Below are positions 1,723 through 44,419 of a stretch of DNA of 64,000 bases, piece by piece. The position numbers and the translations under genes were made by a program. Origin of the DNA: Armatimonadota bacterium (lineage in GTDB: Bacteria > Armatimonadota > UBA5829 > DSUL01); assembly GCA_025998755.1 (NCBI GenBank), contig AP024674.1, positions 1,850,162-1,914,161 on the forward strand. Reading direction: 5' to 3'. Below the pieces are notes generated by a model. It ran no database searches, was not told the origin of the DNA, and was given only the letters and a program-made list of their open reading frames with translations. Every line of letters starts with the position of its first letter. Position 1 is the first letter of the stretch.

Positions 1723-1755
1723 GAGCGCGCCGCCGCGCTCCTGAGTCGAAGCCAG

Positions 1756-1784: not shown

Positions 1785-1821
1785 CCCTGCGAAACGGCTG
1801 CGAGAATTCCGCCCCCGCAGG

Positions 1822-2766: not shown

Positions 2767-2790
2767 CAAATCAGCCTCCACGGAATTGGC

Positions 2791-2830: not shown

Positions 2831-2834
2831 TGGA

Positions 2835-27457: not shown

Positions 27458-28818
27458 CCGGCTGAGGCGCTCTGCTCGTCCTTCCCGTCTTCCCCCGAAG
27501 CGGGAGGTTCTCCGTCTTCTCTGAGCGGCTCGATGCGGATCTTGCGCAGGCGGCGGCCTTCTTTCTCCTGGACGGTCATCCGCCAGCCACTGAACTCCAC
27601 GCTGTCGCCCACTTCAGGCTCTTTGCCCAGCGTCCCGAACACGAACCCGCCGATGGTCTCGAACTCGTCTTCGGGCAGGCGAGCGTCCAGCTGCTCGTTC
27701 AAGTCGTCTATATTCAGACGGGCATCCACCACCCAGGCATCCTCGTCCTGAATGGTGATGAGCGGCTCCTCGTGGTCGTACTCATCGCGGATCTCCCCGA
27801 CGATCTCCTCTATGAGGTCCTCCACCGTGACCAACCCGGCAGTCCCCCCGTATTCGTCCCGCACGATGGCCATCTGCCGGTTGTTGGAGCGGAACTCCGC
27901 CAGGAGCTCGCTGACCTTCTTGTTTTCCGGCACGAAGAACGCCGGGCGCACAATGTCACGCAGGCTTGCCTCGCGTTTCTCCGGGGATGCCAGGATGGGT
28001 AACAGATCCTTGGCGTGGATGATGCCGATGATGGTGTCCACATTGCCGTCAATGACGGGAAGGCGGGAATGTCCGCTTTCCATAATGACGGAGACCGCTT
28101 CGAGGACGGGGGTATCGGCGTCCACCACCTTCATGTCGATCCGCGGCACCATCACTTGGCGGACGACGGTGTCCGTAAACTCGAAGATGGAGTCGATCAT
28201 CTCTTTCTCGTCCTCTTCGATGACGCCTTCCTCTTCCCCGGCCTCCACCAGCACCATAAGTTCTTCTTCCGTGAGGGCAGGCCAGGAGAGGCGGACCTTT
28301 GCACCGAAGGGAGCGAGCAACGCGCCTGCAACGACCGCGACCAGGCGCACAGCGGGCTTCATCAGCCGGGAGACAAGAGCCGAAACGCCGATGGTCTTCA
28401 GAGCGATGCGCTCGGACTGGTGGGCGGCAATGCTGCGGCTGAACGACTCCGCCACCAGGATGAAAAGAATACCTGTCACCGTCACGGCGATCAGGATGCC
28501 CAGCGCCTCCGCGTTGGCGCTGATCAGGTCATAAGCCGAGCGCTCCAGAAGCCTCCCCAGCCAGCGGCCGGGACCGGCCGCGCTCGTGGCCGCAGCCAGA
28601 AGCCAGAGGAGAAGTCCCAGAGTATGGGCGGCGGCCGCCGCCAGCGAGGGATCCTCCAGCAGGGCCATCGCCCTTCGGGAAAGGCGCCCGTTCTGCTCGC
28701 CCAGCTCCCGGATACGGGAGCGGCGCACCGACACCAGGGCAGTCCCGACTGCTCCGAAGAAGGCTCCCGCCAGGACCAGCCCGAAGAACAGAGCCAGATT
28801 ACTTAGCCAGTCGTCCAC
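27439..28818 (-). CDS. CNNM/HlyC-CorC family membrane protein (DUF21, CBS pair, CorC_HlyC domain)
   Basis: A 459-residue protein; the GTG at 28818 has only a weak GGTGGGA upstream. Residues 1-190 are a DUF21 transmembrane region with four hydrophobic segments. LTEEELMVLVEAGEEEGVIEE and MIDSIFEFTDTVVRQVMVPR lead into the CBS-domain pair (VSVIMESGHSRLPVIDGN; VSELLAEFRSNNRQMAIVRDEYGG). The C-terminal CorC_HlyC (FAD-binding-like) domain is at about 350-425 (FETIGGFVFGTLGKEPEVGD). Relatives are implicated in divalent-cation (Mg2+/Co2+) efflux; older annotations call them hemolysins. It marks the left chromosomal flank of the accessory island. Confidence 0.92.
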   Translation of the reverse strand: MDDWLSNLALFFGLVLAGAFFGAVGTALVSVRRSRIRELGEQNGRLSRRAMALLEDPSLAAAAAHTLGLLLWLLAAATSAAGPGRWLGRLLERSAYDLISANAEALGILIAVTVTGILFILVAESFSRSIAAHQSERIALKTIGVSALVSRLMKPAVRLVAVVAGALLAPFGAKVRLSWPALTEEELMVLVEAGEEEGVIEEDEKEMIDSIFEFTDTVVRQVMVPRIDMKVVDADTPVLEAVSVIMESGHSRLPVIDGNVDTIIGIIHAKDLLPILASPEKREASLRDIVRPAFFVPENKKVSELLAEFRSNNRQMAIVRDEYGGTAGLVTVEDLIEEIVGEIRDEYDHEEPLITIQDEDAWVVDARLNIDDLNEQLDARLPEDEFETIGGFVFGTLGKEPEVGDSVEFSGWRMTVQEKEGRRLRKIRIEPLREDGEPPASGEDGKDEQSASAGQSASG

Positions 28819-28949
28819 TTTTGAGTCCCACCCGGCGAAACTGCCTCAGCAGCCGCCCTCCGGGGGCAGAGATGCGGGGACGCATAATGTATCGGCAGCA
28901 ATATGCGTTAGAAAAAGCGGGCCGAGAAGGGTTTTCGGCGCTGATGGGC

Positions 28950-29330
28950 CGTAGTCCTGCTTGCGCACCGGGCACAACGCCGACAGTGATTCGAGTCTGG
29001 AAGCGATAGTTGCATCTACTGAGGACATAGTTTCCATCGTCGTCCTCTGTTATCCAAAACGGCGGAGCCCCGTCTCGAAGTCCCCTCAAGGCTCTCGTCT
29101 TTGACGCGGCCTTTGCAAACTCGGAGATGTTCTCGCTTTCCATCTCCGCTACAGCCAGCAGCACAGGCCTCACCATCCTGCCCGATGGGGTCGTAGTGTC
29201 TATCTTCACCTTTATGCAGTGGATGGCGCAGCCCGCTTCCTCGAAGAGGACCAACAGCTCGAGGCCTTCTCTTGCATTGCGGGCAAGTCTGCTGAGTTTG
29301 AAGGCCTGCAATACTATAAAATGGAAAGAG
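28950..29330 (-). pseudogene. Fragment of a serine recombinase (resolvase domain), truncated at both ends
   Basis: Translating this stretch gives FIVLQAFKLSRLARNAREG, VKIDTTTPSGRM, LLAVAEMESENISEFAK and LRGLRDGAPPFWI. These match the second half of the catalytic resolvase domain (the KLDRLARN, D-ST-GR and LAELERE blocks). The first roughly 60 residues with the catalytic serine are absent, and so is everything after the link to the recombinase domain. The downstream end runs into the start of the CBS-protein gene. It is a mobile-element remnant, oriented opposite to the larger remnant to its right. Confidence 0.65.
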
Positions 29331-29407
29331 GTGCGAACGCCAATAGGTTACATATTACCCGACAACGGCGATAATGGGGAAGCGAAGGTCCCCAACACTG
29401 GGCTGGG

Positions 29408-30950
29408 GTAGCGATCTACCCCCGCAAGTCCAACAAGGGCGAGGGAAGCAAGAACAAGAGCAAAGTAGAGCAGACAGATTACTGCTTCACCGTCGCCGAC
29501 TAGTATCGGTTCTCTCGGGAGCATGCTACGCTCTTTGACGAGCCCGAGGGCCAGAAGAGAGAGTGGTATTGGCAGGACCCCGAGGGCAGGAACCCCGGCC
29601 CCTACAGGCCCGCCTTCACTCGACTTATGGCCGACATCGCCGCCGGCAAAATCCAGGTTGGCATCTGCCGGCGCTCGGACAGGCTGGTTCGCGACAGCGA
29701 CGTGGGCGACGCATTAGCCAAGTTTTTCAGGAAACACGACGTCCGGCTCAACTGCGCGGGCAGGGACATTGCCATCGACACTTCCCCAGGCCTTTACCAG
29801 TTCAGTGTGGAAGCGGCCAACAATCGCAGGTGGGGGATCAGATATCTGAAAACATCATACGCGACAAGCAGCTCAAGATGTCCATGGGCATGTTTGTCCG
29901 GCACCCTTCTTGTCTTGGTATTCGCTCCAGAGGCAAAGGGACTCAGGCAGTGGATCTGGTTGTGGAAGAGATCGAGTTGGTCAACAGGATATTCAGGATG
30001 TTTGCGACCGGAGAGAACGGCGCTGGCCCGATGGGCATCAACGCGATTGCCAACAGGCTGACGGACGAGGGCATCAGCCTCGCGGTCGGCGCCAAGGGCC
30101 ACAAGCCGAAACACCCCGAGAAGATCCACACATCGCAGATAATGACCATACTCAGGAATTGCGAATACATCGGCAAGTTTCGATACAAGAAGCACGAATA
30201 TGATTGCCCGGCTCTGCGTTTTCCTGCCCGGGACGGTAGCGGGAAGCTGGAGACAGCGGTGCCCGTAACATTATATGAAGTGGCTCAGGAAAAGCTGAGG
30301 CTCAACAACAGGCCGGGCAGCAAGTCGGCCTGTAGCGAGCACCTGTTGGCCGGGACAGTGGTCTGCGCCTAATGCGGCAGGCCGCTGCACGTTCACCGTG
30401 AACGCAGGAGTAGAAACAGCGACGGCAGCGAGCGCGCCGTCAGCAAGTACTACGTCGTCGGCCGCCGAGATACTGCAAGCCATTCGGGATGCGGATGCTC
30501 CAGGAAGACGTTCTTGACCAGTGGGTTCTCAATGAGCTCTGCCCATTGCTTGCGAAAGAGATTCGGGATGCTCAGTAGTCGGCCGCCAGGAATGCCGATG
30601 CCCAAACCCTTGCCGAGCTTGAGCGCAGGATTCACGAGCTTACTAGCAGGAAGTCGAAGACCCTGACCGAAATGGTTGGTGTGATGGACCCGGACCAGAT
30701 AGGGCATGTCGCGTCATCTCTCAAGGCGGAGAGAGATACTTTCCAGCGCAAGGCTGAGGAGATTCGGGCCAGGCCCGACAGGCATTCGGAACTGCCGGAT
30801 CTTTCACCCGAGGCGCTAGCGCAGATGCCGGGGTCGGCGATAAAGGACGCCCCTGCAAGAGCGGTGCAGGGGATCGCAACTGAAAGAGAGGGCATCATCG
30901 TTCTGACAAGCTTCGGCACCTATATCGGGGCCAGAATCTGCTCCATCCCA
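29408..30950 (+). pseudogene. Decayed large serine recombinase with stops and frameshifts
   Basis: Coding sequence of a large serine recombinase can be followed across several frames. AIYPRKSNKGEG is the N-terminal strand with the catalytic Ser. VGICRRSDRLVRDSD is the resolvase core. EIELVNRIFRMFATGENG to GINAIANRLTDEGI is the recombinase domain, followed by TILRNCEYIGKFRYKK. A zinc-ribbon start is seen at VCA-stop-CGRPL, and a coiled coil near SSLKAERDTFQRKAEEI. In-frame TAG codons are at 29501 and 30576 and a TAA at 30370; frame changes occur near 29,830 and 30,500. The gene is inactive. It is probably the former integrase of the neighbouring island, or a later insertion. Confidence 0.8.
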
Positions 30951-31167
30951 AAAGGAACGTTCTTCTCGGCCCAGACAAAGACAACCGTCGCGCCGCAGAC
31001 GCCGGAGGCCGCGGCCAGTTGTCTGAGTTGGCTGCCTTCGCCCGAGGGTGAATGTCGAAGATCCGGGCTGAATGGGCGTTGTATAACCCCATTGATTGGC
31101 CAGCCGCCGCTTCGGGCGCACTTGCCTGCAAGACATTGGGGGATCGCAAGCAAGTCGGCCGGAGCAC

Positions 31168-32397
31168 TCAGAGCACATCGACAAAGTCGATCTCGCCTGA
31201 ATCCTCCTGACCTGGAGGTTCGGGGACCGTCTGAGCACTATCTCTCCCGCGCTGTATGACGAGGTCGCCCGCCTGCTCCGAGCTGCAGATTCGCTTGAGA
31301 GCGTGCATTTCCTGTCCGGCAACTCCGCTTAGATAGACCCAGTTCGTCGCCCGCGTTATGCCGACGAACACCATTCGCTGGCTGATATCCTTGCGAAACT
31401 CATCAAAGGAACCCTCCACAAGGCGCGGCATCAGAACGGTGTCGAACGTAAGGCCCTTGACCCCGTGGTAGGTCAGCACCTTCGGCAGATCCGTGTCGAA
31501 GTCTACGTTTTTGCTCGTCTGAGCCTCCACCTCGATTCCGGCTGTTCGCAACGCCTTGGCAACGCCTGCCACCTGGCGATTGTGCGGGAGGACTACGGCC
31601 ACGGTCTCGCCCATGAGGACGCGAGTGCGCAGAACGGCGATCAGACGCTCCATTTCGTCATCGAAATCCTTGGCAAGATAAACGAGCGGCTTCTCGCCGG
31701 AGGTCTGTGGAATTCGGTTCTGCTTGAGATAGGCGGCCCTGTCCTCGGCATCATCTATCAGTTCGGCAGCCACGCTTGCGACATACGGACAACACCGAAA
31801 CGCTGCTAGCAGCGACATATTTCGCCGTTTCAAGCCCAGCGCGCCGAGAATCCTGTCTTCGTCCGTGCCGTGATCATATATCTGCTGCTTGTGATCCATG
31901 CACGCCGTCACATGCCCCGCGATTGACGTGAGCACCCTGAAAACATCGGAGTCCAGGTCCTGTGCTTCGTCCACCAGGACGAAGTCGTACATTGGTTCGC
32001 CTTTGGGCCGCGACCCTACAGCTTCCAGCACTGCCTTCCGAATGGCGATGAAGTCCGGGCATTTTTCCTCCGCATTCCAAGGCAATCTGCCTCCGATACG
32101 TCTGCGGTGGTAGTTCAAGCACCATCTGTCAAACGTGCTGACGCATTTGTCAGGGATTCCGAGCAATTCAAGGCCCGAAGAGATGTACTCCTTGAGCACG
32201 TTGTTGAAAACGAAGATGCGGAAGTTGTCAGGCCCGCAGCCAAGTTTATCACAGAGGTATCGGGCGCGGTGAACCAGGACCTGGGTCTTGCCCGACCCGG
32301 GGGGGCCAAAGACCAACCGGTGTTCGCCCATATCGAGTTCTACGGCCCGCAGCTGATCAACGGTCAGTTCCTCCCGCGGCACGAGCCACGTGCTCAT
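31168..32397 (-). CDS. Compact UvrD/Rep-like superfamily 1 helicase, last gene of the defence operon
   Basis: A 409-residue protein whose ATG overlaps the Hsp70 stop (ATGA), so it is translationally coupled. SF1 motifs in order: a Q-like LTVDQLRAVE, Walker A GPPGSGKT near residue 31, Walker B LVDEAQDLD near 138, motif III-like MDHKQQIYD, motif IV LLAAFRCCPYV, motif V LTYHGVKGLTFDTV and motif VI VFVGITRATNWVYLSG. It is much shorter than UvrD, Rep or PcrA because the 1B and 2B insertions are missing, leaving a minimal motor. It lies at the end of the methylase/PLD-SNF2/Hsp70 train, which suggests a DNA-translocation or nucleic-acid-remodelling role in that system. Confidence 0.9.
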   Translation of the reverse strand: MSTWLVPREELTVDQLRAVELDMGEHRLVFGPPGSGKTQVLVHRARYLCDKLGCGPDNFRIFVFNNVLKEYISSGLELLGIPDKCVSTFDRWCLNYHRRRIGGRLPWNAEEKCPDFIAIRKAVLEAVGSRPKGEPMYDFVLVDEAQDLDSDVFRVLTSIAGHVTACMDHKQQIYDHGTDEDRILGALGLKRRNMSLLAAFRCCPYVASVAAELIDDAEDRAAYLKQNRIPQTSGEKPLVYLAKDFDDEMERLIAVLRTRVLMGETVAVVLPHNRQVAGVAKALRTAGIEVEAQTSKNVDFDTDLPKVLTYHGVKGLTFDTVLMPRLVEGSFDEFRKDISQRMVFVGITRATNWVYLSGVAGQEMHALKRICSSEQAGDLVIQRGRDSAQTVPEPPGQEDSGEIDFVDVL

Positions 32398-34781
32398 TCG
32401 TCACCTCGGGGCGAGAGTGTAGGCAGCAATCCTTCTGGGGGCAGCGGCGTCCCGCCTCTCTTTCGGCGTTTCCTCTGCTCGGCCTTTGCCTCTTCGACCA
32501 GTTCGGAGTCGCCAGCAGCCTGCGCCGCGGTCAAGAACCAACGCAGTGCCCAGTCATCAAGGAACTCTGGCTTGCCAAAGGCGTCCAAGGCTTCGCGCAG
32601 GTAGCTCGCTCTTGCCTCAGCATCATTAACGTCTCCGGCAAGGAGTCCGCGGAGAGCAACGTACGCCCCATCTCTCTTGCGATCCATCGCCAGTTCCACC
32701 GACTCAATCGCTTCCTCGTAGCGTTTCTGCTGCCTATACATCAGGGCCAGGCTGAACAGAGGGCTTCCCCAGCCCGATGCCTCGGCCGCCTTTCTATATA
32801 GTTTTTCTGCACGCTCGTAATCCTGCATTTCGGCATAGATGATTCCCATTAGATAGAGAATCCCCGCGTCGGCGTAGTTCAGCCTCTGCAGGGCGCTCCG
32901 CAGGCATGCCAGTGCTCTCTCTCGGTGGGCAAGCTTCCAGTACTCCTCGGCGAGCTCTTTCAGAAGCCAGGGCATTTCATCCTCGGCCACTTCCTTGTGG
33001 CGAATCCGCCGCTCGATCTCGTTGATCCGCGTTCGTGTGCTGTGTGGGTTGACCACGTGCGTCAGCGGGTTCTGAACGTCGGCGACAAGCACGGGAACCG
33101 ACCCGTCTGCCAAACCCATCACTATCTTGAGTACCTGGTTCTCGTCGTAGTAGTACTCGAGGAATATCCGGGCCCCGGATTTCTCCGCAGTGTCCAGAGG
33201 CCACGTGTAGAATGCCACCGTTCTGTTCTCTCGGCCGGCGACGATTTCGAGCCTGATTTTGTCTTCGTCTTCCCCTTCCCCCGCCAATACCATCAGGCTA
33301 TCGTTGAGTGCGTACTTGTCCCTTTGCGGATACGGCAGTTCCGCGCCTTTCGGAACGAGCTCCAACAGCCCGCCTTGGTGTCGAACGCAAAGTGAGTCGT
33401 GCGCAACCGGTCTGAAAAAGCCTGAACCGGTCAGCGCGAGTGCCATCGCGTGAAATGCCGCGCCACGCGCTACCGCAAGCTGAACGGCATCTCGATCCGG
33501 CGGTTCAAGGATCTCTGCTTCTGGCAGGAACTCCCTGATTCCGTCAACAACCTGCGGAATCAGGCTGCTGCCACCGACCATCAAGCAGTAGTCCACGTCC
33601 TCCGGATCCAGGTCGCTTCGCGATAGCGCATCGGCGACCGGCAAGAATATCGGGCAGGTCGTGTAGTATTCCCCTTCATTGACACATGGAACATCGTGGT
33701 CTAGGAACGGCTCCAGGACCTGGTTGAACTGGCTCAGCGACATTGCCGGGCTTTCCAGCACATAATCATTTTCTTGTATCGGACATTTGAAGACTCCCGG
33801 GAGTTTGGCCGTGAGATCCTTCGCATCCCTGCCGAACTTGCGCAGCCGCTCCAACTCGATGCACAGTTTGATCTTCAGAGATTCTGCTACTCCCATCAGC
33901 GCGGGTTCAACGTAGAGCCGCTTTTCGTCAAACGTGAGATCGTGCGGCCCAATGCCGTTTTGCTGGATAAGCTGCGGAATCAGCACGTCGTGAACGATCG
34001 ACGCATCAATGTCTCCGCCGCCGAGCCTGTGATACCGCGACACAGAGAGAGCCGCGATTTCCAGCCGCGACTTCTTCTTTCCGCGGCTCACGCGGAACAC
34101 GGCGACATCACATGTTCCGCCGCCGAAGTCGAAGACTAGCAGCACTTTTGGCTTCGCGAACATCTCAGCCACGTTGCTGCCCTGTGTACAGGCGTAGTCG
34201 AGGAACGCCGCCATCGGCTCGTCCAGCAGCCCTCCCGCGTCAACGTCGAGCCCCGCGAGTTTGGCCGCCTTGAGAGTGTCATACCGCTGAGCGGCCTGGA
34301 ACGAAGCAGGCACGGTCACGACCACTCTCTCCGGCGCGGTGTCCAGGGCTTCAAGCGCTTTGGAGTGAAGGAACGAGAGCACCTTTCCCCCTATCTCCGC
34401 AGCGTTCTGGTAGCCGACGGGCGCCCCGAGATACGGCTTGTCTGTCCCGATGTCGTTCTTGCACTGAGAGAACACATGCCTGTTCGGGATTAGTTTCAGA
34501 AACCCCGATTGGGCCAGAAGCCTCTTTGCGCCCTCGCCGACCCATTCCCGGCCGTCGTGAAGCACCACGACAGACGGAACGAGAGGGCTAATATACTCTC
34601 CTTCAGCAGTCACCTGCGGGATGTCCAGGCAGTGAACCTTCACAGACTGAGTCTCCGGGTCGTAGACCGCCTCCGCAACCGTGGAGTTGGTCGTGCCCAG
34701 ATCTATGCCAAGGGCTCGGACCGGCCCGGCCGGCTGAGGGAAGTCCCCAACGCTTTCTTTGATGATCGACATGAAGTCCAT
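32394..34781 (-). CDS. Hsp70-family ATPase fused to a C-terminal TPR region
   Basis: About 795 residues from the ATG at 34781 (AAAGGA upstream at long spacing). Residues about 13-400 form an Hsp70/actin-fold ATPase: phosphate-1 GIDLGTTNS, VTVPASFQAAQR, phosphate-2 DFGGGTCDVAVF and adenosine-binding VGGSSLIPQVV. There is then a beta-rich part that does not look like a canonical DnaK substrate lid (TVAFYTWPLDTAEKSG). From about residue 590, TPR-like helices follow (RALACLRSALQRL, YLMGIIYAEMQDYERAEKLY, FSLALMYRQQKRYEEAIES), then a basic tail KAEQRKRRKRGG. It is not housekeeping DnaK: it is TPR-fused, has no EEVD-like end and sits between two helicases. A chaperone or assembly role for the defence proteins is inference. 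Confidence 0.9.
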   Translation of the reverse strand: MDFMSIIKESVGDFPQPAGPVRALGIDLGTTNSTVAEAVYDPETQSVKVHCLDIPQVTAEGEYISPLVPSVVVLHDGREWVGEGAKRLLAQSGFLKLIPNRHVFSQCKNDIGTDKPYLGAPVGYQNAAEIGGKVLSFLHSKALEALDTAPERVVVTVPASFQAAQRYDTLKAAKLAGLDVDAGGLLDEPMAAFLDYACTQGSNVAEMFAKPKVLLVFDFGGGTCDVAVFRVSRGKKKSRLEIAALSVSRYHRLGGGDIDASIVHDVLIPQLIQQNGIGPHDLTFDEKRLYVEPALMGVAESLKIKLCIELERLRKFGRDAKDLTAKLPGVFKCPIQENDYVLESPAMSLSQFNQVLEPFLDHDVPCVNEGEYYTTCPIFLPVADALSRSDLDPEDVDYCLMVGGSSLIPQVVDGIREFLPEAEILEPPDRDAVQLAVARGAAFHAMALALTGSGFFRPVAHDSLCVRHQGGLLELVPKGAELPYPQRDKYALNDSLMVLAGEGEDEDKIRLEIVAGRENRTVAFYTWPLDTAEKSGARIFLEYYYDENQVLKIVMGLADGSVPVLVADVQNPLTHVVNPHSTRTRINEIERRIRHKEVAEDEMPWLLKELAEEYWKLAHRERALACLRSALQRLNYADAGILYLMGIIYAEMQDYERAEKLYRKAAEASGWGSPLFSLALMYRQQKRYEEAIESVELAMDRKRDGAYVALRGLLAGDVNDAEARASYLREALDAFGKPEFLDDWALRWFLTAAQAAGDSELVEEAKAEQRKRRKRGGTPLPPEGLLPTLSPRGDE

Positions 34782-34859
34782 TGGCTCACTTGTCCTTTCG
34801 AAGATACCTTCCGGCAATCTCAGGTTCGCCCAACCAACCTTGCACCACCAATGGCAACA

Positions 34860-37800
34860 TTACACCAGGCCCTCGGAACACACGATTCTTGATACCGGTT
34901 TCTCCTGGAGCATGGATGAGCGGCGGTCGGCCCATTCCCGCATATTGTGCTGGTAGTAGATGTCACGGAGCCCGTGCAGAAGGTCTTGTCCTGTAGCGCC
35001 GTTCCGCCGGAGTCTGTTGAGCTCTTTATTGACCGCATTTGTGACCGGCCCTCTGAACGCCTTTGCCAGTAAGTCGATCTGAGACTTGATCTCTTCGTCC
35101 CGCGCCAGCGCGAACTGACCACGAAGCTCCCTGAGCACATACTTCTGCCCCTGTGATAACCCCAGGGTCTTTTCCCGTTCGGCCTGCCGTTGCTTGACTA
35201 CTTCTGCAAACTGCCTCTTGGCGCGCGCCACACGAGAGTTGTAACCCTCCGGCAATGTAGCCGTCGGCGTTTCAGGAGCGCACTTTATCATGCCCAGGAC
35301 GCGCGGCACATCGCGAGTCACCTCGTTGCCCTCGCTGTCGAACACTACCAGTTCCTGATAGGCTTTTAGATCGCTTCGGCCCGGATAGCTGCTCTCGCAG
35401 AAGACGTAGAACCCCTTGGCGAGAGCCTGCACAGCAGACCTTACGCCGTCGGGCATCGAGGCGATCCTCTCAAATTCCGCAGGGCTCTCTTTCTTCAGCA
35501 GCCGCACGATTTCTTCCGCTTCGTTGAGGTCAAGCAACTCATCTTCCTCATCCTCGAACAGGCTGAGTTGTTCGCCCTTCCTCTCGTAGATTGCGTACAG
35601 AGCCTCCTCGTTGAGCTGTTCAGAGGAATCCAGAATCGCTGCGTCTTCCCCTATGGTGTCGTGTATCTCCTGAATTCGGTTCCGAAGCACCTCTTTGAGC
35701 CCCAGATTGCGCTCAATTCCCAGTTCAGGCAGGAAGTTGAACCCGTAGATGACATCGTGTTCGCTGCCTATGCGGTCTATTCGCCCGAACCGCTGAATCA
35801 GCCGGACCGGGTTCCAGTGGAGGTCATAGTTGATGATCTTATCGCAGTCCTGCAGGTTGAGGCCTTCCGAGAGCACGTCCGTAGCCACGAGGGTGGATAT
35901 CTCACACTCTCCTTCCTGGAACTTGTAGCTCGGGTTGGCTCTGGGGGCGAACCTTCCCACGGCGCGCGCTCTGCTCTTGTCTGAGCTGTAGACCACCTCA
36001 ATGTCGTCCCGCTCTTCTTTGGGGTTCAGGTTTTCATAAAGGTACTTGGCCGTGTCGGCGAATTGGGTGAAGATCAGAAGCTTGCCCTGATTGAGGGGTT
36101 CCTTGCGAAGCCAGTCAAACAGAGTCTGCAGCTTGGCGTCCTTTGCAGCGGTGATCGGTTCGACCAATCCGAGGATATGCTTTAGGACCGATATATCGTG
36201 CTCAATTGCCTTTCTTAAGCGCGACAAGTCGAAGTCTTCGATGTTGTAGTGCCCGCTCGCTTGCCGGAGCGCGTCCATTAGACCCACCTCCGACTGCACA
36301 TCTGACTCGTACAAGATGTTTCTGGCATCCTCACCGGCAGGCACTATTCCTTCTTGGAGAGCTGCGAGGAATCTTTCGTGCGCCCTCAACAGGCGTTGGA
36401 TGGTTGCTCGAAACGCGTACACGCTGGACTCGAAGCGTTTGAACAGCAGGATGCGAATGAGGCCGCGCAGGTTCGCGCCGGCGCGCTGCAAGCTTGCATA
36501 AGGCTCCTGGCGCTGCTTCTCGGGACGAACGTAATGCCACAACCCGAACCTGGCAAAAGTGAGTTGGCCTTTGAACAGCCTCCCTGCGCCGTTATTGCCC
36601 GGCCGGCCGAGAGCGCTCCTGATCTCCTGATACAGCCCCTGGTAGGTGTCCTCTATACTATATTCTATGGTCTCAAGCTCGCGCTTGGGGAAGAACTGGT
36701 GCTTGCCGCCAACGATCACGTAGGCGCGCCTCCTGCCGGACGCATAGTCAGCGAAGCGCGACGGATCCACCGGCTCGTGAGTGTCCGCATCATATCCATA
36801 CCATCGCAGAATATGGTTGCGGGTCCGCCGGATCAGAATATGAACCAGCAGGTCGGGCAGCTTTCGGTTCCCTCGCTCGATGGACTTGAAATATTCCTTG
36901 AGGTCCGCGGGTTCGATTGGCAGGTCGGTCTTGTCGCTCTGGTGGAACAGCTTGATCTGATGATAGACATCCCAGGCGGTCTTGTTTCGCGGAGTGGCCG
37001 TGAGCATGCAGCACTTCTTCTGCGTTGCCAAAAAGGCCTCCACGGCTCTGTAGCGCTGCGTTTCCGGGTTGCTGAGGTTGTGGCTCTCGTCAATCAGCAC
37101 AAAGTCGCGGTCACGATACAATCCATCGTTGGGGTCCAGGTACTTCTCCACGTCCTTGCCTTCGCTGAGATACCCCATGGACAGTACGCGCGCGTTGAGG
37201 TCATACTCCTCATTGTAGCGCTCCCACATCTCCACCAGCCCGGCCGGGCAGATAATCAGCGGCCGCGCATGCTCAGTCCGCTCGAAGTGCTTCACGATGG
37301 CCGCGCCGATGTAGCTCTTGCCCAATCCCACAACGTCGGAGACGAACACGCCACCGTAGTCGCGGATCATCTGCACAGCCTGCTTCACCGCAACCTTCTG
37401 AAAATCCGCCAACTTGGATGTGATATCGTCATCCCACAGCAGGTCCTGATCGGCCTCGGATTCCAGGCGGTCCCGCACCAGCCGGTATAACGTCTTCATA
37501 TAGATGTCGTAGGGACGGACCAGCGATGCGGCCCAGGACTGTTTGATCTCCTGCATAAAGGCCTCGTCGAACTCTTCGGACTCATTCCAGAGCTCGTCGA
37601 ACCATCTCACAAGCTCAGCGTGGTTGTCGTTGCCCTGGACCACGACGTTCAGCTCCGTGTTGTGCGTAAGCCCGGACAGCGTAAGGTTGGACGATCCGAC
37701 TATCGCTATCCCCTTCTCGTGCCGCTCGATTGGCTGGCCCGAGGCGTCGTATACAGGCCCGTAGTCGAAGATATAGGCTTTGGCGTGCAGCCTGCCCTTG

Positions 37801-38219
37801 GTGTAGACCCGGACCTTGAGCCTGCCCTCCTCGATCATCCGCGCCAGGTTCAGGATGACTCTCTCATCCTCGTCGGATTGGTCCATCATCTCCATCGCCT
37901 CGCGGATGGCTTCGGCGGTCTCGCTCACCATGCGCTTCGAATCCACCCTCTTCGGGTAGCTCTGCGCCTCCGCTGCTTCCTTGACCATCTCCAGCGACCG
38001 ATAGCCCTCGGCTAGCTGCTCCAGGGTCTCTCGGTTGGTGGTGTTGCCGATCAGCAGCCGGAGTTCCGACAGGTCCACTAGCTTCGAGGCAATTCCCTTA
38101 AGACCGGATATGAAGAAGTAACCCACAGCAAACCGCGCAGCGCTCGTGGAATCGAGTATCCGGTCTATGTGATCGGCAAGTATCTCCTTGCGGTTGTCTA
38201 TAATGTCGTGAGCGGCCAA
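34860..38219 (-). CDS. PLD-nuclease-SNF2 helicase fusion protein
   Basis: A 1119-residue protein starting at a TTG (38219) with AAGGAG upstream, 12 bp after the HEPN remnant. Residues about 10-230 are a phospholipase-D-type domain with one HxK motif, GRLHAKAYIFDYG (His near 143), and GSSNLTLSGL, giving a single HKD half-site that would need dimerisation. Residues about 275-470 are the first SNF2 lobe: DVVGLGKSYIGAAI (motif I), LIDESHNLSN (DExH-type motif II) and LTATPRNK (motif III). The second lobe runs about 690-860: LLIFTQFADTAKYL, ATDVLSEGLNLQDCD (motif V) and QRFGRIDRIGS (motif VI). The last 250 residues are helical with no assigned family. Likely an ATP-driven DNA translocase with nuclease, the candidate restriction component. 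Confidence 0.93.
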   Translation of the reverse strand: MAAHDIIDNRKEILADHIDRILDSTSAARFAVGYFFISGLKGIASKLVDLSELRLLIGNTTNRETLEQLAEGYRSLEMVKEAAEAQSYPKRVDSKRMVSETAEAIREAMEMMDQSDEDERVILNLARMIEEGRLKVRVYTKGRLHAKAYIFDYGPVYDASGQPIERHEKGIAIVGSSNLTLSGLTHNTELNVVVQGNDNHAELVRWFDELWNESEEFDEAFMQEIKQSWAASLVRPYDIYMKTLYRLVRDRLESEADQDLLWDDDITSKLADFQKVAVKQAVQMIRDYGGVFVSDVVGLGKSYIGAAIVKHFERTEHARPLIICPAGLVEMWERYNEEYDLNARVLSMGYLSEGKDVEKYLDPNDGLYRDRDFVLIDESHNLSNPETQRYRAVEAFLATQKKCCMLTATPRNKTAWDVYHQIKLFHQSDKTDLPIEPADLKEYFKSIERGNRKLPDLLVHILIRRTRNHILRWYGYDADTHEPVDPSRFADYASGRRRAYVIVGGKHQFFPKRELETIEYSIEDTYQGLYQEIRSALGRPGNNGAGRLFKGQLTFARFGLWHYVRPEKQRQEPYASLQRAGANLRGLIRILLFKRFESSVYAFRATIQRLLRAHERFLAALQEGIVPAGEDARNILYESDVQSEVGLMDALRQASGHYNIEDFDLSRLRKAIEHDISVLKHILGLVEPITAAKDAKLQTLFDWLRKEPLNQGKLLIFTQFADTAKYLYENLNPKEERDDIEVVYSSDKSRARAVGRFAPRANPSYKFQEGECEISTLVATDVLSEGLNLQDCDKIINYDLHWNPVRLIQRFGRIDRIGSEHDVIYGFNFLPELGIERNLGLKEVLRNRIQEIHDTIGEDAAILDSSEQLNEEALYAIYERKGEQLSLFEDEEDELLDLNEAEEIVRLLKKESPAEFERIASMPDGVRSAVQALAKGFYVFCESSYPGRSDLKAYQELVVFDSEGNEVTRDVPRVLGMIKCAPETPTATLPEGYNSRVARAKRQFAEVVKQRQAEREKTLGLSQGQKYVLRELRGQFALARDEEIKSQIDLLAKAFRGPVTNAVNKELNRLRRNGATGQDLLHGLRDIYYQHNMREWADRRSSMLQEKPVSRIVCSEGLV

Positions 38220-38231
38220 TAGATGCTCCTT

Positions 38232-38672
38232 TCAGACGTACTCAGGATGGTTGGCCTAAAGCCATCCGCGAACTGCCTCATCCAGCTCCTGAGCCTTGGC
38301 AATCAGTTCCGTCACCTTGGCCCTGGATACGATGCCCGACCTGGAGTAGGTCGAAAAGTTTCGGATTCGCCTGCACTTCTGCACTTACGTGCTCAAAGCC
38401 TGGTGTTCCACGCCCAGGATCTTGGGGAGAACCCCAAATACGGCGAGATGGTGCCCTTCTCCACGTGTTCGATATCCGGCGCATCTGAGCGGGATAGTCG
38501 CAAGCAGCAGCGCCGCGTCCTAGGCGCAGTTGAAGCGTCCATCCAGCGATAGCTGGTCCGCCTGCGCATCGCCGAGGCTCGTGGAGGCAACGCTCATCAG
38601 GTCGGCAATCTCGCGCCTGGAGGTCCTTCTCGGTTTCAGCCTTCCCTCATTCGGCGAGCCTTCTAAGCTCAT
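38232..38672 (-). pseudogene. HEPN-domain protein gene with three in-frame stop codons
   Basis: A single frame of 147 codons runs from an ATG at 38672 to a TGA at 38232-38234, and its translation is a convincing HEPN-type helical protein: NEGRLKPRRTSRREIADL, FNCA-stop-DAALLLA, GYRTRGEGHHLAVFGVLPK, CRRIRNFSTY, AQELDEAVRGWL-stop-ANHPEYV. TAG at codon 51 replaces the usual Tyr of the (A)YDAA helix; TAA at codon 96 probably replaces a Tyr; TAG is at codon 139. The start overlaps the MNT gene by 26 bp, as in HEPN-MNT toxin-antitoxin pairs. HEPN partners are usually RNases or nucleotidyltransferase targets. As it stands the gene cannot give a full product. Confidence 0.8.
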
Positions 38673-39254
38673 CATCGCCTCCGATCAGGAAGAGCTTGGT
38701 CTCCCGCATCACTGAAGTTACGAAGTGATCCCCGTTTTTCAGCCGTTCCCGGAACTCAACCGCTGGAAACACTGCTGGATTCACTTCCCTGCCAAGCTCA
38801 CTCTCAGCCGTGTCGAGCGCCTGCGATAGCTCAACTAGCGATACGTCGCCGACGACAGAAAGGTCCACATCGCTTTCAGAACGCTCCTCGCCTCTTGCGC
38901 CGAGCCGAAGATGAACGCGACCTTCATTTGCTCCGAGAGCTCAGCCAGGCAAGCTCTGAGCACATCGGCAAGGCCGACTGACTTGACAAACATGGACCGC
39001 AGATCGGGAACTATGAGGCATCGCTCGTTGATTCCTAAGTAGAATTGGCGGCCGCAGCGCTCTCGCAAGATCACGCCCGCCGTTTCAAGATTCCCAAGCT
39101 TCCGCTGGACGCTTCCCTGACGTAGTCCGGTCTTCTTGACCAGCTCGCGCAGATAGAACCTGCCTTCGCCGCCAAACAGCAGGACTTTGAGAAGCTATAT
39201 GCGGGGGCAGGATTGGATTATTGTCTCCAGCATTACGCCCTCCACCGTAGGCAT
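38647..39254 (-). pseudogene. HTH-MNT nucleotidyltransferase gene with an amber stop and a 1-nt frameshift
   Basis: The ATG at 39254 opens a frame interrupted at codon 20 by TAG (39195-39197). It continues as LLKVLLFGGEGRFYLRELVKK, TGLRQGSVQRKLGNLETAGV, an HTH of the type fused to MNT domains. The nucleotidyltransferase core is FGSA, then after a one-base loss near 38,896 RGEERSESDVDLSVVGDVS, restoring the GSxxRGEExxxSDxD motif. The total of 608 nt is one short of 203 codons, consistent with one deletion. The downstream frame ends at 38647, overlapping HEPN. Intact relatives act as antitoxins (AMP transfer to HEPN) and repressors. A palindromic operator lies just upstream. Confidence 0.8.
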
Positions 39255-39264
39255 AATGAATGCA

Positions 39265-39292
39265 AGTGTACGCATTTTGCGTACTGTGTCGA
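39265..39292 (-). promoter_or_regulatory. Promoter with a perfect 17-bp palindromic operator between -35 and -10
   Basis: On the minus strand TCGACA (39292-39287), a 16-bp spacer and TACACT (39270-39265) stand just before the MNT start. The palindrome GTACGCA-AAA-TGCGTAC (39284-39268) fills the spacer and touches the -10. This is the standard position for a repressor of the MNT-HEPN-helicase part of the operon. The HTH of the MNT protein would be its natural reader, but that gene is broken. Confidence 0.6.
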
Positions 39293-39350
39293 GCACCTAT
39301 TGCTCTTCCTCCTCACCTGCGTTTGGGTCAAAAGGTCCAAGCTGCCGAAA

Positions 39351-42300
39351 TCACACGCTTTCAGCCTTTGACAGGCGCTTTGTAACCAGCTCGACCACGG
39401 CTTCGTACACAGCGTCCCGCTCGCACTGGGTTAGCCCAATTGCGTCGAACAGGACATTATCTAGGGCGCGTCGGTCGTCGTTAACCATCTCTTTGTTTAT
39501 AGACATTAATGGACGCCGAGCTACCACGGTGAATGCCTCCTGCAAAGCCTCGCGTTCCCGGCTCGCCAAACACCGAGGCGACAAGATGATTTGGTTCTGC
39601 ACCTCGTACACCATGACGCTCCGTGGGCCGCCTCCCCCCCCATAATTCCTCGCGCCAACTTCATCGCACAATATGGACAGGGCAGAGTTCAATAATGCCT
39701 GCATCACCGGATCCGTAATGGAAACATAGAACCTGCAGTCCGCAATCAACAGTTCGGCAGAGCCGAACACTCCGATACGGTCGCGCAGTTCCTTTGCCCA
39801 AAATGTATTCCCAGGTGTCTCCCTGCACTCCCACCACCGCCGCCGCCCTGCACAACTCGGACCCTTGTGAAACCCTTGCGTCTCCCCCCAACGAATGTAT
39901 TCCAGAGCTCTTGTTCCGGCGAGTTCACGCTTTTCCAGGTGACACACGAACAGGCACTGTCCTAAATCCCGAGGGCTGACCTCAAGGCTGCGGCACTCCC
40001 TCGGGCTCTTGATCACTGGCTTCAGGAACTCTTCCTCGATGCCCCACTGCCTGATCTTCTCCTCGTCCAGGTAGAAAAACTCATTGCACCCCGTCTTGAT
40101 TCCGAAGCGCACTTCGGCGATGTCTCCAAGCCGCACAAGCTTGCCCTTGCCCTTCTCCAGAATAGTCCAGTAGATATCCGGAGCCCGCAGATACTTGCCG
40201 CCCCACTTGTCCCCGACGTATCTCGGCACTTTTACCAGCGGGAAGCGCCTGTCTGGTGCCGCGTTGGCCGGCTCGTCTTCCTCGTCCTCAGCGGGCTGGT
40301 CGAACCCTCTTTCCAGAAGCTCTTTCTGCTTGACCACCTGCACCCTGTATTCCGGGGTGGACCGACGCCCCTCGGCTTCCTCGATCTCCTCGAACACCAC
40401 CGCCGACAACACCTGCTCGAACGGCACCTTGAACATCACGAACCGCGCGATGTTCGAAAGCCCCGCGTCCTTTTTTTTCGACGGCGCGGAGAGCAAACAG
40501 ATAACCGAGTTCACGTCCGCACTGGCGAACGATCGCTTCACCTGGTTGTCCATCACGAGCTTCAGATGACACTGCCTCAGCAGGAACTCCTGAAGGTCGG
40601 CCCCGTATCCCACGTCAAGCCACGAGTTGGACGTGATGAAGACAAACGATCCCGTAGGGTTCAGAATGTGCAGCCCGCGGAAGTAGAAGTATATGTACAG
40701 GTCGCTCTTGGCATCAATTTTCCTGACGGCCTTTCCGGTTCCGCACTTATACTGGAAGAAATCGGGATGATCGCGCTGAGTAGTGAGCATGACCTTTTCT
40801 TTGTAGCGGCGTTTGTTCTCGGCAGTCACTTCGTCGCGCGGCAGCCGAGGGTCGGATATCTGCTCCTGTCTCACGTAAGGCGGATTGCCCACCACGATAT
40901 CGAACCCCGACCTGTTGCCACGGAACACCTCGGCAAAGGCTATGCTCCACACGAACGGAAGGCCGCTCATGCGCGCCAACTCCTTCTGAGCGGCGAGCAG
41001 ATTGTTGATCTCCGCCTGCTTTTGCTCGCGTTCCTTCTTCCATCTCTCTGATTCTGCGAGCGTCTCCTGCTGGGGCTTGTCGAACCCGCCTATGAGCGGC
41101 GGGACCTGCTTGGGCTCATTCCCGATGGCGGCGAGTTCCCGCTGCGCGGCGATGATGCGCTCTTCGAGAATATCGTGGAACAGGCTTCGCTCGGCCTGCT
41201 GCGCGTCCTGGACGCTATGGAACTCGCAGTCGCAATCGCCGTAATAGAACTTGGCTTTCTCGGCGGTGAGTTTGGTGATGCGTTGCTTCATGGAGCGCGA
41301 GAGCGTGGATTCGGTCAGGTGCGCCAGTCCAATCCCGCCGACCTCCTCGACAAGGCTGTCCCCGCACCGAATGTTGAAAGTAAAGTTGGGCAGCAGGGGC
41401 TCGTGGCGAAAGGCCAGTTCCTCTCTGGTGAACTGCGCGTCTATAATGAGCGCCAGCCAGAGACGGAGCTCAGCTACGTGGCAAGCCCATTCCATGACGT
41501 CCACGCCGTATAAGTTCTGGCCGATGATCCGCTTGCGGCGCTCGTATGAATCTTCGGCTATGCCCAATGCCGTTTGAGCGCGCTCTTGAACGTCGTCCAT
41601 TATGTGCAGCATCCCGACCAGGAAAGAGCCCGACCCGCACGCGGGATCCACAATCTTGGTCTCCTGAAGTTCTTTGAGGATCGTGTTCCAAAGTCCAGCG
41701 GCGGAGACTTGGCCGTCCGCGTCCTTCTTCTCGTCGGGCTCCAAGGCGAATATGAGCTCGTAAAGCAGCTTGCGGTGCTGTTGGCCGATTCTGCCGGATA
41801 GGTTGTCCACCAGCGCTAGCCGGCACATCAGGTCTATCTCGGTTCGGGGCGTGTAGAAGATTCCCGCGTCCCCGCGCTCGTCAGCTTCCTCGGAGACATT
41901 GACCAGGCTCTCGTAGACCTTTCCAATCATCTCCGGATCAACGGAGACTTCCTGGTCCAGCGGGCTGTCCTCGGCGATGGTGAAGTTGTAGTTGTCCAGA
42001 AACTCGATGACCCGCTCCAACCGCGAGTCGCATATGGTGAAGGGGTCGCCCGGGGCGTCGAGTCTGTTCTCGGCAAACAGGCCTCCGTTCAGGTATGGCG
42101 CGTCGCACAGAGCCTTGCGAAAATGCTCGGGTATGTGCCGCCTCTGAGGAGTGTTAAGCAGAGACTTCTTGTTGTTGAAGGCCTCGAAGAACAGCGGCTT
42201 GAGCCACTTCTCGAAGAAGGTATCCTTGGGCTGTCCGCTGCCGGCATATGCATCGAAGTAGGACCTGATGAACTCCGTATCGTCCCCAAGCCAGCGTTTG

Positions 42301-42986
42301 CGCTGCACGAAGTAGAGGAACATGAGCCGGTTGAGGAGGCTGAGGGCATAGTCGTGCGCCCAGGTCCGGTCCGGTATCTGAGCCTGCAGGTCTTCCTGGA
42401 GAAGATTGAACACCGTCTTGTAGTCGTCGAAGAACTGCTTGGTTACAGCCTCGACGTTGAATGCCTCATCGTGCTTCTGCTGAATGTCCAGCGCGGACAG
42501 GTCGTGGAGCGCCGGGCTCATCGAAGCGACATCGAGCAGGGAGATGCGCTCGCAGGCGGTTCTCAGCCGTTCGTTCGGGCCGACGCTGATCCTCCGGAAT
42601 ATGCGGCGCTTGGTGGCATCGGGATCGTTCCGAACGTTGACGAAGTGCCAGTTCTCTTGCCCGGCGTCGGAGAAGACGAATAAACTGTAGAGATGGTCGT
42701 TGAGGAGCCGGTTGATCAGCACGCGCTCGTCGGAGATGTGCAGCTTGCCCTCGGAGTGGAGACGGCAGTAGAGGACGTGAAAATCGCCGTCCTGGCCGGC
42801 CGTCGCGAAGAGAAGGGGATCATCCGCAAGGGCGGTGCGCTCGGTGTCGGTCCATGACCCGGTTGGGATAGCCTGGTTTGCTCTCTCGTAGTTGAGCTCG
42901 CGCCAGAAGAGCTCTTTCAGGGGGTCGATGCCCTTGAGGGCGGTCAGCAGGTCAAGAACTGTCTGCCTGTTATCGTGTACGGCCAC
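39351..42986 (-). CDS. Eco57I-like N6-adenine DNA methyltransferase, large multidomain
   Basis: A 1211-residue protein from a GTG at 42986 (only AGG nine bases upstream). Residues 1-330 form a helical N-terminal part of the type found in giant Eco57I/PglX-like methylases (LYSLFVFSDAGQENWHFVN; FRRISVGPNERLRTACERI). I see no PD-(D/E)xK nuclease in it. The methylase core has SAM motif I DPACGSGSFLVGM near residue 445, GVDVMEWACHVAELRLWLAL and the catalytic VGNPPYVRQEQ near 699, followed by a coiled coil before it (KQAEINNLLAAQKEL). The C-terminal 350 residues look like a TaqI-C/S-type target-recognition domain (VRLGDIAEVRFGIKTGCNEFFYL). It probably marks host DNA so the PLD-SNF2 protein can tell it from foreign DNA. 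Confidence 0.92.
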   Translation of the reverse strand: MAVHDNRQTVLDLLTALKGIDPLKELFWRELNYERANQAIPTGSWTDTERTALADDPLLFATAGQDGDFHVLYCRLHSEGKLHISDERVLINRLLNDHLYSLFVFSDAGQENWHFVNVRNDPDATKRRIFRRISVGPNERLRTACERISLLDVASMSPALHDLSALDIQQKHDEAFNVEAVTKQFFDDYKTVFNLLQEDLQAQIPDRTWAHDYALSLLNRLMFLYFVQRKRWLGDDTEFIRSYFDAYAGSGQPKDTFFEKWLKPLFFEAFNNKKSLLNTPQRRHIPEHFRKALCDAPYLNGGLFAENRLDAPGDPFTICDSRLERVIEFLDNYNFTIAEDSPLDQEVSVDPEMIGKVYESLVNVSEEADERGDAGIFYTPRTEIDLMCRLALVDNLSGRIGQQHRKLLYELIFALEPDEKKDADGQVSAAGLWNTILKELQETKIVDPACGSGSFLVGMLHIMDDVQERAQTALGIAEDSYERRKRIIGQNLYGVDVMEWACHVAELRLWLALIIDAQFTREELAFRHEPLLPNFTFNIRCGDSLVEEVGGIGLAHLTESTLSRSMKQRITKLTAEKAKFYYGDCDCEFHSVQDAQQAERSLFHDILEERIIAAQRELAAIGNEPKQVPPLIGGFDKPQQETLAESERWKKEREQKQAEINNLLAAQKELARMSGLPFVWSIAFAEVFRGNRSGFDIVVGNPPYVRQEQISDPRLPRDEVTAENKRRYKEKVMLTTQRDHPDFFQYKCGTGKAVRKIDAKSDLYIYFYFRGLHILNPTGSFVFITSNSWLDVGYGADLQEFLLRQCHLKLVMDNQVKRSFASADVNSVICLLSAPSKKKDAGLSNIARFVMFKVPFEQVLSAVVFEEIEEAEGRRSTPEYRVQVVKQKELLERGFDQPAEDEEDEPANAAPDRRFPLVKVPRYVGDKWGGKYLRAPDIYWTILEKGKGKLVRLGDIAEVRFGIKTGCNEFFYLDEEKIRQWGIEEEFLKPVIKSPRECRSLEVSPRDLGQCLFVCHLEKRELAGTRALEYIRWGETQGFHKGPSCAGRRRWWECRETPGNTFWAKELRDRIGVFGSAELLIADCRFYVSITDPVMQALLNSALSILCDEVGARNYGGGGGPRSVMVYEVQNQIILSPRCLASREREALQEAFTVVARRPLMSINKEMVNDDRRALDNVLFDAIGLTQCERDAVYEAVVELVTKRLSKAESV

Positions 42987-42998
42987 TCGATCAAGCCT

Positions 42999-43010
42999 GT
43001 TGCTAGCAAC
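42999..43010. promoter_or_regulatory. Perfect 12-bp palindrome before the methylase start
   Basis: GTTGCTAGCAAC is self-complementary and lies 12 bp upstream of the methylase GTG, inside the leader. It could be an operator or a methylase/controller site. No reader is known. Confidence 0.35.
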
Positions 43011-43073
43011 CGCTGAAGCTGTTCACTTCCCCATTGAAACTGAAAGGGATTAGTGGCGCGTGGGCATTACTGG

Positions 43074-43102
43074 ATGTTAGCGTGATTGCGCCGAACAGTC
43101 AA
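43074..43102 (-). promoter_or_regulatory. Sigma-70 promoter of the methylase/defence operon
   Basis: TTGACT (43102-43097), a 17-bp spacer and TAACAT (43079-43074). The predicted leader is about 80 nt to the GTG at 42986. Confidence 0.75.
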
Positions 43103-43369
43103 GGATAAGGCGTCGCATCGGAGATCGCGCGCCCTTCTCCACCTCGGCTCGTCCTCAGCAATCCATCCACTTCCTGTCCCGCCATGCGCAGCGGAAGCTG
43201 AACGTCCGGCGGCGGCGTGGATATGCAGATGATCCGTATCGCTTCGGGGATTCGAACGCTCGATCTCGCAGCTGATCGCAAAGGAGTGCACACGCCCCTG
43301 AACCCGTGCATGCAACGCTGTGGGCCGTGACGGTCGCAGGTGATGCATTACGGTTCACCGCAACGGCAT
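43103..43369. other. Gene-free interval at the right edge of the island
   Basis: No credible gene between the methylase promoter and the dgkA-PAP2 stop. Short open frames are out of register with any known family. No direct repeat matching the left edge (28.8-29.4 kb) was seen by eye. Confidence 0.5.
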
Positions 43370-44419
43370 TCATCGCAGGAGCGTGACGACTCCCGCCACG
43401 AACGTCCCCAGCAGTCCGCCGAAAACTACCTCCCGGACGGTATGGATTCCTGCATCCACCCGGCTCTGAGCCATGAGCAGGGCCAGGAAGATGGCAGCCC
43501 CCCGGACCACATAGTCCGGAGACGAGAGAAAAATGATGACGGCGAAGAAGAACCCGAGCGCCGTGTGACCGCTCACCACACCTCCTCGCAGGAGCGTTCC
43601 GCGCCCTCCAGAGACCTTGCGGATGAGCACCAGTGCAAGGAGCAGCAGCACCCCCACCACCACTACGGTCATGATTCGGGGACGGTGGATCTCTAGGTCG
43701 GCCCGCAATCCCCCGCGCTCCGCGATAATCAGATCGTTCAGGGACATGGGCGTGTCGTTCTCACGGCGCACCACCTTCCTGATGCCAATGGCCTTCAACG
43801 CCTCCAGGTAGTCCACCCATGCTTGATGATCACGGTACAGGAAAGATGCGGCTGGATCGGCGGGAATATGGGGCGGGGCGAGCACGTACGGCTTGTCGCG
43901 GGTCTCTGGATTTCGAAGATGCTCCTCGGCCCGTTGCAGGTCGGCACCATAGGCGCTGGCGCGGGCATTGCGGTAGGCGTCGCTCTCCACCGGCCGACCG
44001 GCCGTGAACAGGATCAGGCCAACCGCCAGGGCATTCAGGGTGGCCATCAGCACCGCTCCGGCGGCTATGTCTTTTGCAAACTTCGCAAGCGGATGGTACG
44101 TCTGAGTCACCAAGTCCACCACCGCCTCGATGGCGGTGTTGAACATCTCGGCGATAAGCACCAGCGAGATGGTCAGCAACAGGACCAGGATCTCGCCCGA
44201 CGGCAGGCCCACGGCCTTGCTGAAAAGCAGCACCGTGACCAGCATGAAGAAGTGGAAGCGCATGTGCTTCTGCGTGCGGTAGACGTGCATGATGCCGTCG
44301 GCCGCATACTTGAAGCCGCCTCCGCCCAGCAGCTTGCGCAGCCATTGGAAGATGCCGCTGCGGAAGCTCCGGGGCGGCGGCTCGCGCCTCTCTTTGCCTG
44401 CCGGCTGCGCGACGCTCAT
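43370..44419 (-). CDS. Diacylglycerol/undecaprenol kinase fused to a PAP2-type phosphatase domain
   Basis: A 349-residue inner-membrane protein. The ATG at 44419 overlaps the ybeY stop (ATGA). Residues about 30-135 are a DgkA-type kinase: FKYAADGIMHVYRTQKHMRFH and the signature EMFNTAIEAVVDLVT, followed by HPLAKFAKDIAAGAVLM. Residues about 165-240 are a soluble linker. From about 245 come a transmembrane helix and a PAP2 core with VVSGHTALGFFFAV and SRVDAGIHTVREVVFGGLLG, supplying the two histidines of the phosphatase active site. Kinase and phosphatase for lipid-P on one chain suggest recycling of undecaprenyl or diacylglycerol lipids at the membrane. It is the right flank of the island. Confidence 0.88.
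   Translation of the reverse strand: MSVAQPAGKERREPPPRSFRSGIFQWLRKLLGGGGFKYAADGIMHVYRTQKHMRFHFFMLVTVLLFSKAVGLPSGEILVLLLTISLVLIAEMFNTAIEAVVDLVTQTYHPLAKFAKDIAAGAVLMATLNALAVGLILFTAGRPVESDAYRNARASAYGADLQRAEEHLRNPETRDKPYVLAPPHIPADPAASFLYRDHQAWVDYLEALKAIGIRKVVRRENDTPMSLNDLIIAERGGLRADLEIHRPRIMTVVVVGVLLLLALVLIRKVSGGRGTLLRGGVVSGHTALGFFFAVIIFLSSPDYVVRGAAIFLALLMAQSRVDAGIHTVREVVFGGLLGTFVAGVVTLLR

Follow-up and report, generated by a model that had tools for sequence, protein, structure and literature searches.

An inserted Armatimonadota genomic island carries a methylase/PLD-SNF2 module and a separable Hsp70-TPR/UvrD-like helicase pair

We analysed a 64,000-nucleotide stretch of DNA from an Armatimonadota bacterium (hereafter, the window) and observed a 14.5 kb island that carries two gene modules. 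Module 1 is restriction-modification (RM)-like and consists of an Eco57I-type methylase and a PLD-SNF2 fusion protein. Module 2 is an Hsp70-TPR gene coupled to a gene for a minimal UvrD-like helicase. The explanation that we favour, with somewhat better than even confidence, is that of a mobile island of two separable modules, in which the coupled Hsp70-TPR/UvrD-like unit aids the attack on foreign DNA.

The island is located between a corC-like gene and dgkA-PAP2 (Table 1), the flanks named in the initial annotation, and the recombinase wrecks reported at its left edge are broken fragments of the serine-recombinase type. In the same-family genomes G219 and G220, corC and dgkA-PAP2 are contiguous (117 and 46 bp between the matches, respectively), and therefore the 14.5 kb was inserted in the lineage of the window. 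The GC content of the island is 0.57–0.60 against ∼0.64. The intact genes, all on the minus strand, run from 42986 to 31168 in the order Eco57I methylase, PLD-SNF2, Hsp70-TPR and UvrD-like, and their Pfam domains agree with the identities first given to them. Six genes in a row on one strand had been described; these four are intact, while the other two, MNT and HEPN, are present in broken form. A promoter and terminator scan gave counts close to the shuffled mean. Beyond the island, the DgkA-like kinase and the PAP2-like part form one 349-aa ORF (window positions 43370-44419), and in each of two same-family genomes a single open frame matches it as well.

Table 1. Features of the island and its left edge (positions are those of the window)
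Feature	Position	Strand	Basis
Inserted island	28819..43369	.	corC/dgkA-PAP2 adjacency in G219 and G220; GC dip
Resolvase N-terminal fragment (recombinase wreck)	28799-29311	-	Pfam Resolvase, 53.4 bits
Recombinase domain fragment (recombinase wreck)	29563-30372	+	Pfam Recombinase, 34.2 bits
Minimal UvrD-like SF1 helicase, 409 aa, 1A/2A core	31168..32397	-	Pfam UvrD N and C domains; overlaps Hsp70 by 4 bp
Hsp70, DnaK-like NBD and SBD-beta, TPR replacing lid, 807 aa	32394..34817	-	Pfam HSP70 and TPR; predicted structure
PLD (HKD) nuclease-SNF2-type translocase fusion, 1119 aa, putative restriction component	34860..38219	-	Pfam PLDc_2, SNF2-rel, Helicase_C
HEPN toxin-like pseudogene, two in-frame TAG	38256..38675	-	Three pieces match one intact 149-aa protein
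wHTH-MNT antitoxin-like pseudogene, frameshift after 'FIFGSA'	38647..39194	-	Both pieces match one intact 174-aa protein
N6-adenine DNA methylase, Eco57I type, 1211 aa, putative modification component	39351..42986	-	Pfam Eco57I, 105.9 bits

The motifs DPACGSGSF and NPPY of the methylase are intact, as are HAKAYIFD and the SF2 motifs of the PLD-SNF2 protein. An HKD-SNF2 fusion adjoining an N6-adenine methylase, both with intact motifs, places module 1 among the RM-like systems, and the defence logic proposed earlier, a methylase plus a nuclease-translocase, is supported by these domains and motifs. In PADLOC, the PLD-SNF2 protein matched C3a139 'HKD+Snf2' best (280.6 bits over residues 5-873). 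Relatives of this protein (57–67% identity) are present in five Armatimonadota genomes. In two of the five, an upstream methylase (48–51% identical) is within contig reach, with small or toxin-antitoxin-like genes in between; a sixth, remoter genome has both proteins at lower identity (PLD-SNF2 40%, methylase 41.5%). No Hsp70 or UvrD-like gene follows the PLD-SNF2 relatives within the available flanks in these Armatimonadota genomes, and among the five, only G029 has the Hsp70, on a different contig. The methylase and PLD-SNF2 also occur together on archaeal plasmids of Halorussus and Thermococcus, the latter with an MNT-type gene between the two, and on a Deinococcus plasmid; no annotated Hsp70 accompanies these plasmid sets. 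As neither the relatives nor the plasmid sets show an Hsp70 beside them, module 1 presumably functions independently of the Hsp70/UvrD pair, and the methylase/PLD-SNF2 combination is a widespread, known RM-like kind. On the Halorussus plasmid (L112:1473-20337), the two genes are flanked by a UvrD-helicase/PD-(D/E)XK nuclease pair and a McrC/AAA ATPase pair, the region being a plasmid-borne archaeal defence cluster.

The two pseudogenes are positioned between the methylase and PLD-SNF2. The frameshift in one and the two in-frame TAG codons in the other rule out MNT and HEPN as functioning parts of the island. Their intact counterparts are adjacent wHTH-MNT and HEPN genes of another Armatimonadota genome, with a 66% identical PLD-SNF2 immediately downstream of them. 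Pfam assigned HTH_IclR and NTP_transf_2 to the 174-aa counterpart, and HEPN_SAV_6107 to the 149-aa one.

The structural model of the Hsp70 (pLDDT 88.6) matched DnaK (7krv_B) over the NBD and SBD-beta with a Z of 37.4 (469 residues, rmsd 3.3 Å) and has a C-terminal TPR array at the place of the DnaK lid (SBD-alpha). Positions 39, 42, 43, 120, 200, 230, 232-235 and 237 were invariant in 50 of 50 relatives; we take these to include the DnaK catalytic residues D8, K70, E171, D194, T199 and D201. An NBD with catalytic residues together with an SBD-beta makes the protein a member of the Hsp70 (DnaK) superfamily. It is not a canonical DnaK, as it scored 102.5 bits with TIGR02350 (cut-off 822.55) and the TPR replaces the lid. 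Conservation was 0.47 in the NBD compared to 0.32 in SBD-beta and 0.33 in the TPR, a difference that is usual among Hsp70s. A phage origin was rejected, since none of 50,697 phage records matched the Hsp70 at E 1e-15.

The helicase model (pLDDT 90.8) matched the core of UvrD (2is6_B; Z 37.3, 377 residues, rmsd 4.0 Å). With 409 aa compared to ∼650 aa in UvrD, the predicted protein appears to lack the 1B and 2B subdomains. K37 (the Walker A lysine), D143, Q146, R201, R259 and R349 were invariant in 38 of 38 sequences, and the residues kept include the DExQ aspartate and glutamine and the motif VI arginine. UvrD, PcrA and Rep are repair and replication helicases. The protein shares the SF1 motifs and 1A/2A core of this SF1A group; it departs from the group in 1B/2B and in its score with the uvrD equivalog model (39.4 bits against 1144.45). 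The UvrD-like protein of the window had no plasmid match at E 1e-20.

Relatives of the Hsp70-TPR (35–46% identity) were found in 11 other Armatimonadota genomes, so that 12 of 291 genomes of the phylum carry it. A scan of 84,980 species genomes with two short motifs, which is a sample and not a census, gave 80 loci across many phyla, and the pair itself ranges over about a dozen phyla. A UvrD-like gene follows the Hsp70-TPR in 59 of the 72 non-window loci with room for it. The two genes overlap by 4 or 1 bp in 30 of 47 intact pairs and lie at most 25 bp apart in 45, and the distance matrices of the two proteins are correlated (r 0.71, n=37, p 0.0002). Frequent pairing, tight spacing and correlated distances together indicate that Hsp70-TPR and the UvrD-like protein form a unit, a conserved and usually translationally coupled pair.

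Most Armatimonadota copies of the pair stand alone beside ordinary genes. Those of Opitutae group as a single clade whose context is constant, beside PSCyt2/PSD1 genes and with no adjoining restriction genes, which suggests long vertical retention of the pair and perhaps a non-defence role there. Opitutae and relatives that keep the same flanks (PSCyt2/PSD1 and others) comprise L080, L081, L083, L084, L086, L088, L089, L091, L094 and L104; the helicase ORF is fragmentary or uncalled in L089 and L104, and L094 meets a contig end. The pair is also present in a close clade of Verrucomicrobiota (L077, L097 and L099), two members of which, L077 and L099, have downstream an SNF2 helicase of 1129 or 1036 aa, respectively, and after it a protein of 538 or 520 aa without a Pfam match. 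On an Antarctobacter plasmid (L105:9449-14880) and a Persicobacter plasmid (L115:6935-12335), a distant Hsp70-TPR, a short UvrD-like protein and a hypothetical protein are encoded in a row, an arrangement that may be a three-gene form of the pair; the Antarctobacter copy is flanked by IS6 and IS256 transposases. The neighbour of the Priestia Hsp70 is a different one.

We observed recurrent linkage of the pair to methylase systems of several kinds: Eco57I with PLD-SNF2, type ISP, type III-like, IIG-like and BREX-related DUF499. The initial annotation had made co-occurrence of the Hsp70/UvrD genes with methylase/PLD-SNF2 in other genomes the decisive point, and such co-occurrence was found. An Eco57I methylase, PLD-SNF2 and the pair lie on the same strand in Nitrospiraceae (L026, where PLD-SNF2 comes after the pair), Vicinamibacteria (L039) and Gemmatimonadota (L073), and in Contendobacter (L033) a type ISP methylase takes the place of the Eco57I one. 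As this four-component set recurs in four other phyla (Nitrospirota, Acidobacteriota, Gemmatimonadota and Pseudomonadota), the combination is not due to chance. Upstream of the L026 set (430-5638), two further proteins are encoded: one of 1026 aa that has type I specificity-like and HATPase regions, and a VRR_NUC-HIRAN protein. Elsewhere the partners differ. A DUF1156 methylase and a DUF499 ATPase are directly ahead of the Hsp70-TPR in L060:228-12945, which has the UvrD-like gene too, and in L100:1-10630, which also has a Helicase_C/NOV_C protein. Type III-like neighbours (ResIII, IVP and an N6_N4 methylase) adjoin the pair in L016 of G219, from the same family as the window. Eco57I or N6 methylases neighbour it on the same strand in L037, L040, L070 and L087; L037 and L040 are counted as one event because their Hsp70s are near neighbours on the tree.

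Same-strand Eco57I/N6 methylase neighbours numbered 8 against 0.86 expected from how densely Eco57I and N6_Mtase matches occur across the host genomes (P 3.6e-6; with both strands counted, 1.73 expected and P 4e-4). The P values assume independent loci, and the partners were identified partly by eye. The independence assumption is partly offset by the Hsp70 tree, on which phyla are intermixed and 9 label changes are required for the 11 RM-linked members, with supported branches forcing at least 8 of these; restriction linkage has thus arisen or disappeared on many occasions. For most copies of the pair, the available flanks contain no methylase. The pair would thus seem, from its genomic contexts, to be autonomous and often recruited by methylation-based restriction systems.

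The six genes had been proposed as a single system, and recurrence of the four components in L026, L039, L073 and, with the type ISP methylase, L033 is what would be expected if the Hsp70/UvrD genes were a required part of one cooperating methylase/PLD-SNF2 defence machine. We regard this as improbable. The nearest relatives of module 1 (PLD-SNF2 at 60–67%, two of them with the 48–51% methylase) have no Hsp70/UvrD in the available flanks, and the plasmid sets of the archaea and Deinococcus are likewise without it. The pair, in turn, is mostly alone or beside other restriction kinds, with different partners in L016, L060, L100, L037/L040, L070 and L087, and MNT and HEPN are pseudogenes. A single exclusive operon was therefore rejected, both modules occurring separately. 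This separability, along with the recombinase wrecks and the decayed MNT/HEPN at the site, would also fit a passive defence island, in which unrelated genes were deposited together with no functional link. That reading is the least probable of those considered: all 8 of the linked Eco57I/N6 methylases share the strand of the pair, several of them immediately upstream, and the pair follows unrelated restriction systems in two genomes of the same family (the window and G219).

The strongest rival is rescue of host DNA and replication, including rescue from self-restriction. The pair would then be a stress or DNA-repair unit that removes proteins from DNA and restarts replication, not an antiviral one, and its presence near restriction systems would come from limitation of self-damage or from the collecting of useful genes by islands. 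The stand-alone, vertically kept Opitutae copies beside PSCyt2/PSD1, the solitary state of most Armatimonadota copies, the fold match to UvrD, whose kin act in repair and replication, and the lack of any nuclease or cell-killing domain in the pair are all consistent with such a unit. Against it stand the patchy phyletic spread (12 of 291 Armatimonadota genomes, with phyla mixed on the tree), the recurrent association with unrelated methylase systems on the same strand and the plasmid-borne cousins, one of them between IS elements. On balance we consider a repair unit unlikely, and a defence role of the pair likely.

Under the favoured explanation of two separable modules, the Eco57I-type methylase would mark self DNA, and the PLD-SNF2 protein would translocate on unmarked DNA and then cut it; this view draws on the domain content and on the mode of action of HKD-Swi2/Snf2 effectors with an N6-MTase as read in PMC12839542. 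The wHTH-MNT/HEPN toxin-antitoxin pair between them has decayed. Hsp70-TPR and the UvrD-like protein may be produced as a coupled complex, in which the TPR and SBD-beta bind a protein target, either a stalled restriction/translocase complex or a replication/packaging complex of the invader; recognition of invader proteins by the Hsp70 is conjecture, as is the assembly or resetting role first suggested for the pair. The ATP cycle of the Hsp70 could load or release the small SF1 translocase, which would strip protein and unwind DNA at the target chosen by the Hsp70. The most likely job of the pair, which has no nuclease domain, may be nucleoprotein remodelling while foreign DNA is under attack; the Hsp70 would select the target and gate the translocase. 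The pair would add to the restriction response of the island, yet could act without the restriction module.

We also entertain, more tentatively, the broader idea that the pair is an undescribed, self-sufficient anti-invader system of many phyla, with distant cousins on plasmids, in which the Hsp70 serves as protein sensor and gate for a DNA translocase and which has repeatedly been added as a second layer to methylation-based restriction systems. If the pair is antiviral, an active Hsp70 would join the list of immune parts as a sensor or gate, chaperone ATPase cycling would be coupled to DNA translocation, and a function would be at hand for a pair that is found in about a dozen phyla and is unnamed in PADLOC or the literature searched. 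If it instead guards cells against their own restriction, it would be a rare module of auto-immunity control.

Assignment of the island to DISARM, BREX, BREX-related (BR) systems or CoCoNuT was rejected on model scores or absent core genes. The lack of DISARM and BREX hallmarks noted in the initial annotation was upheld. The SNF2-like helicase and large adenine methylase resemble DISARM class 1 (DrmD/DrmMI); however, the PLD-SNF2 protein scored 151 bits with the DrmD NCBIfam model (cut-off 610), and drmA, drmB and a separate drmC are absent from the intact island ORFs. PglX models for BREX gave 33–49 bits against cut-offs of 400–900, and neither PglZ nor BrxC is among the island genes. Module 1 is similar to BR Type-2, composed of HKD-Swi2/Snf2, N6-MTase, DUF499 and DUF3780 (PMC12839542), in its HKD nuclease-SNF2 helicase fusion, its N6-adenine methylase and its MNT/HEPN accessory genes. 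It differs in that no DUF499 ATPase is among the intact genes and the methylase is of the Eco57I type with no DUF1156 match; the main text of PMC12839542 says nothing of Hsp70, UvrD or TPR. The single-gene candidate model C3a139 of PADLOC corresponds to module 1 only.

For module 2, Gabija GajB and NERD+UvrD (PADLOC C3a187) offer a UvrD-family SF1 helicase in defence. The likeness is distant (66–72 bits), and the island has no GajA nuclease and a helicase that appears to be without 1B/2B and is paired with an Hsp70. The pair is absent from the named systems of PADLOC, and in the literature searched nothing combined Hsp70 and UvrD in defence beyond CoCoNuT and the GTPase-centred conflict systems, another setting in which Hsp70 is used (PMC7159879). 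The earlier statement that the Hsp70-TPR/UvrD tail matches no named system thus held, and the pair is provisionally undescribed, the literature search having covered openly available papers and few preprints. In Type III CoCoNuTs (PMC11090510), the Hsp70 proteins CnuD and CnuCD likewise join an NBD/SBD to helical repeats and are encoded in a restriction operon alongside a helicase. Those systems are centred on McrB/McrC and carry HEAT-like repeats, whereas the island Hsp70 has TPR and its gene neighbours include no McrB-like GTPase or McrC (DUF2357). CnuD is described as having degenerate motifs and as probably a very weak ATPase, and the CoCoNuT Hsp70s as binding ATP but, at best, hydrolysing it to an extremely low degree (PMC11090510). 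In the island Hsp70, by contrast, every catalytic residue checked is invariant among relatives. The CoCoNuT Hsp70s are the nearest conceptual relative of the Hsp70 of the pair.
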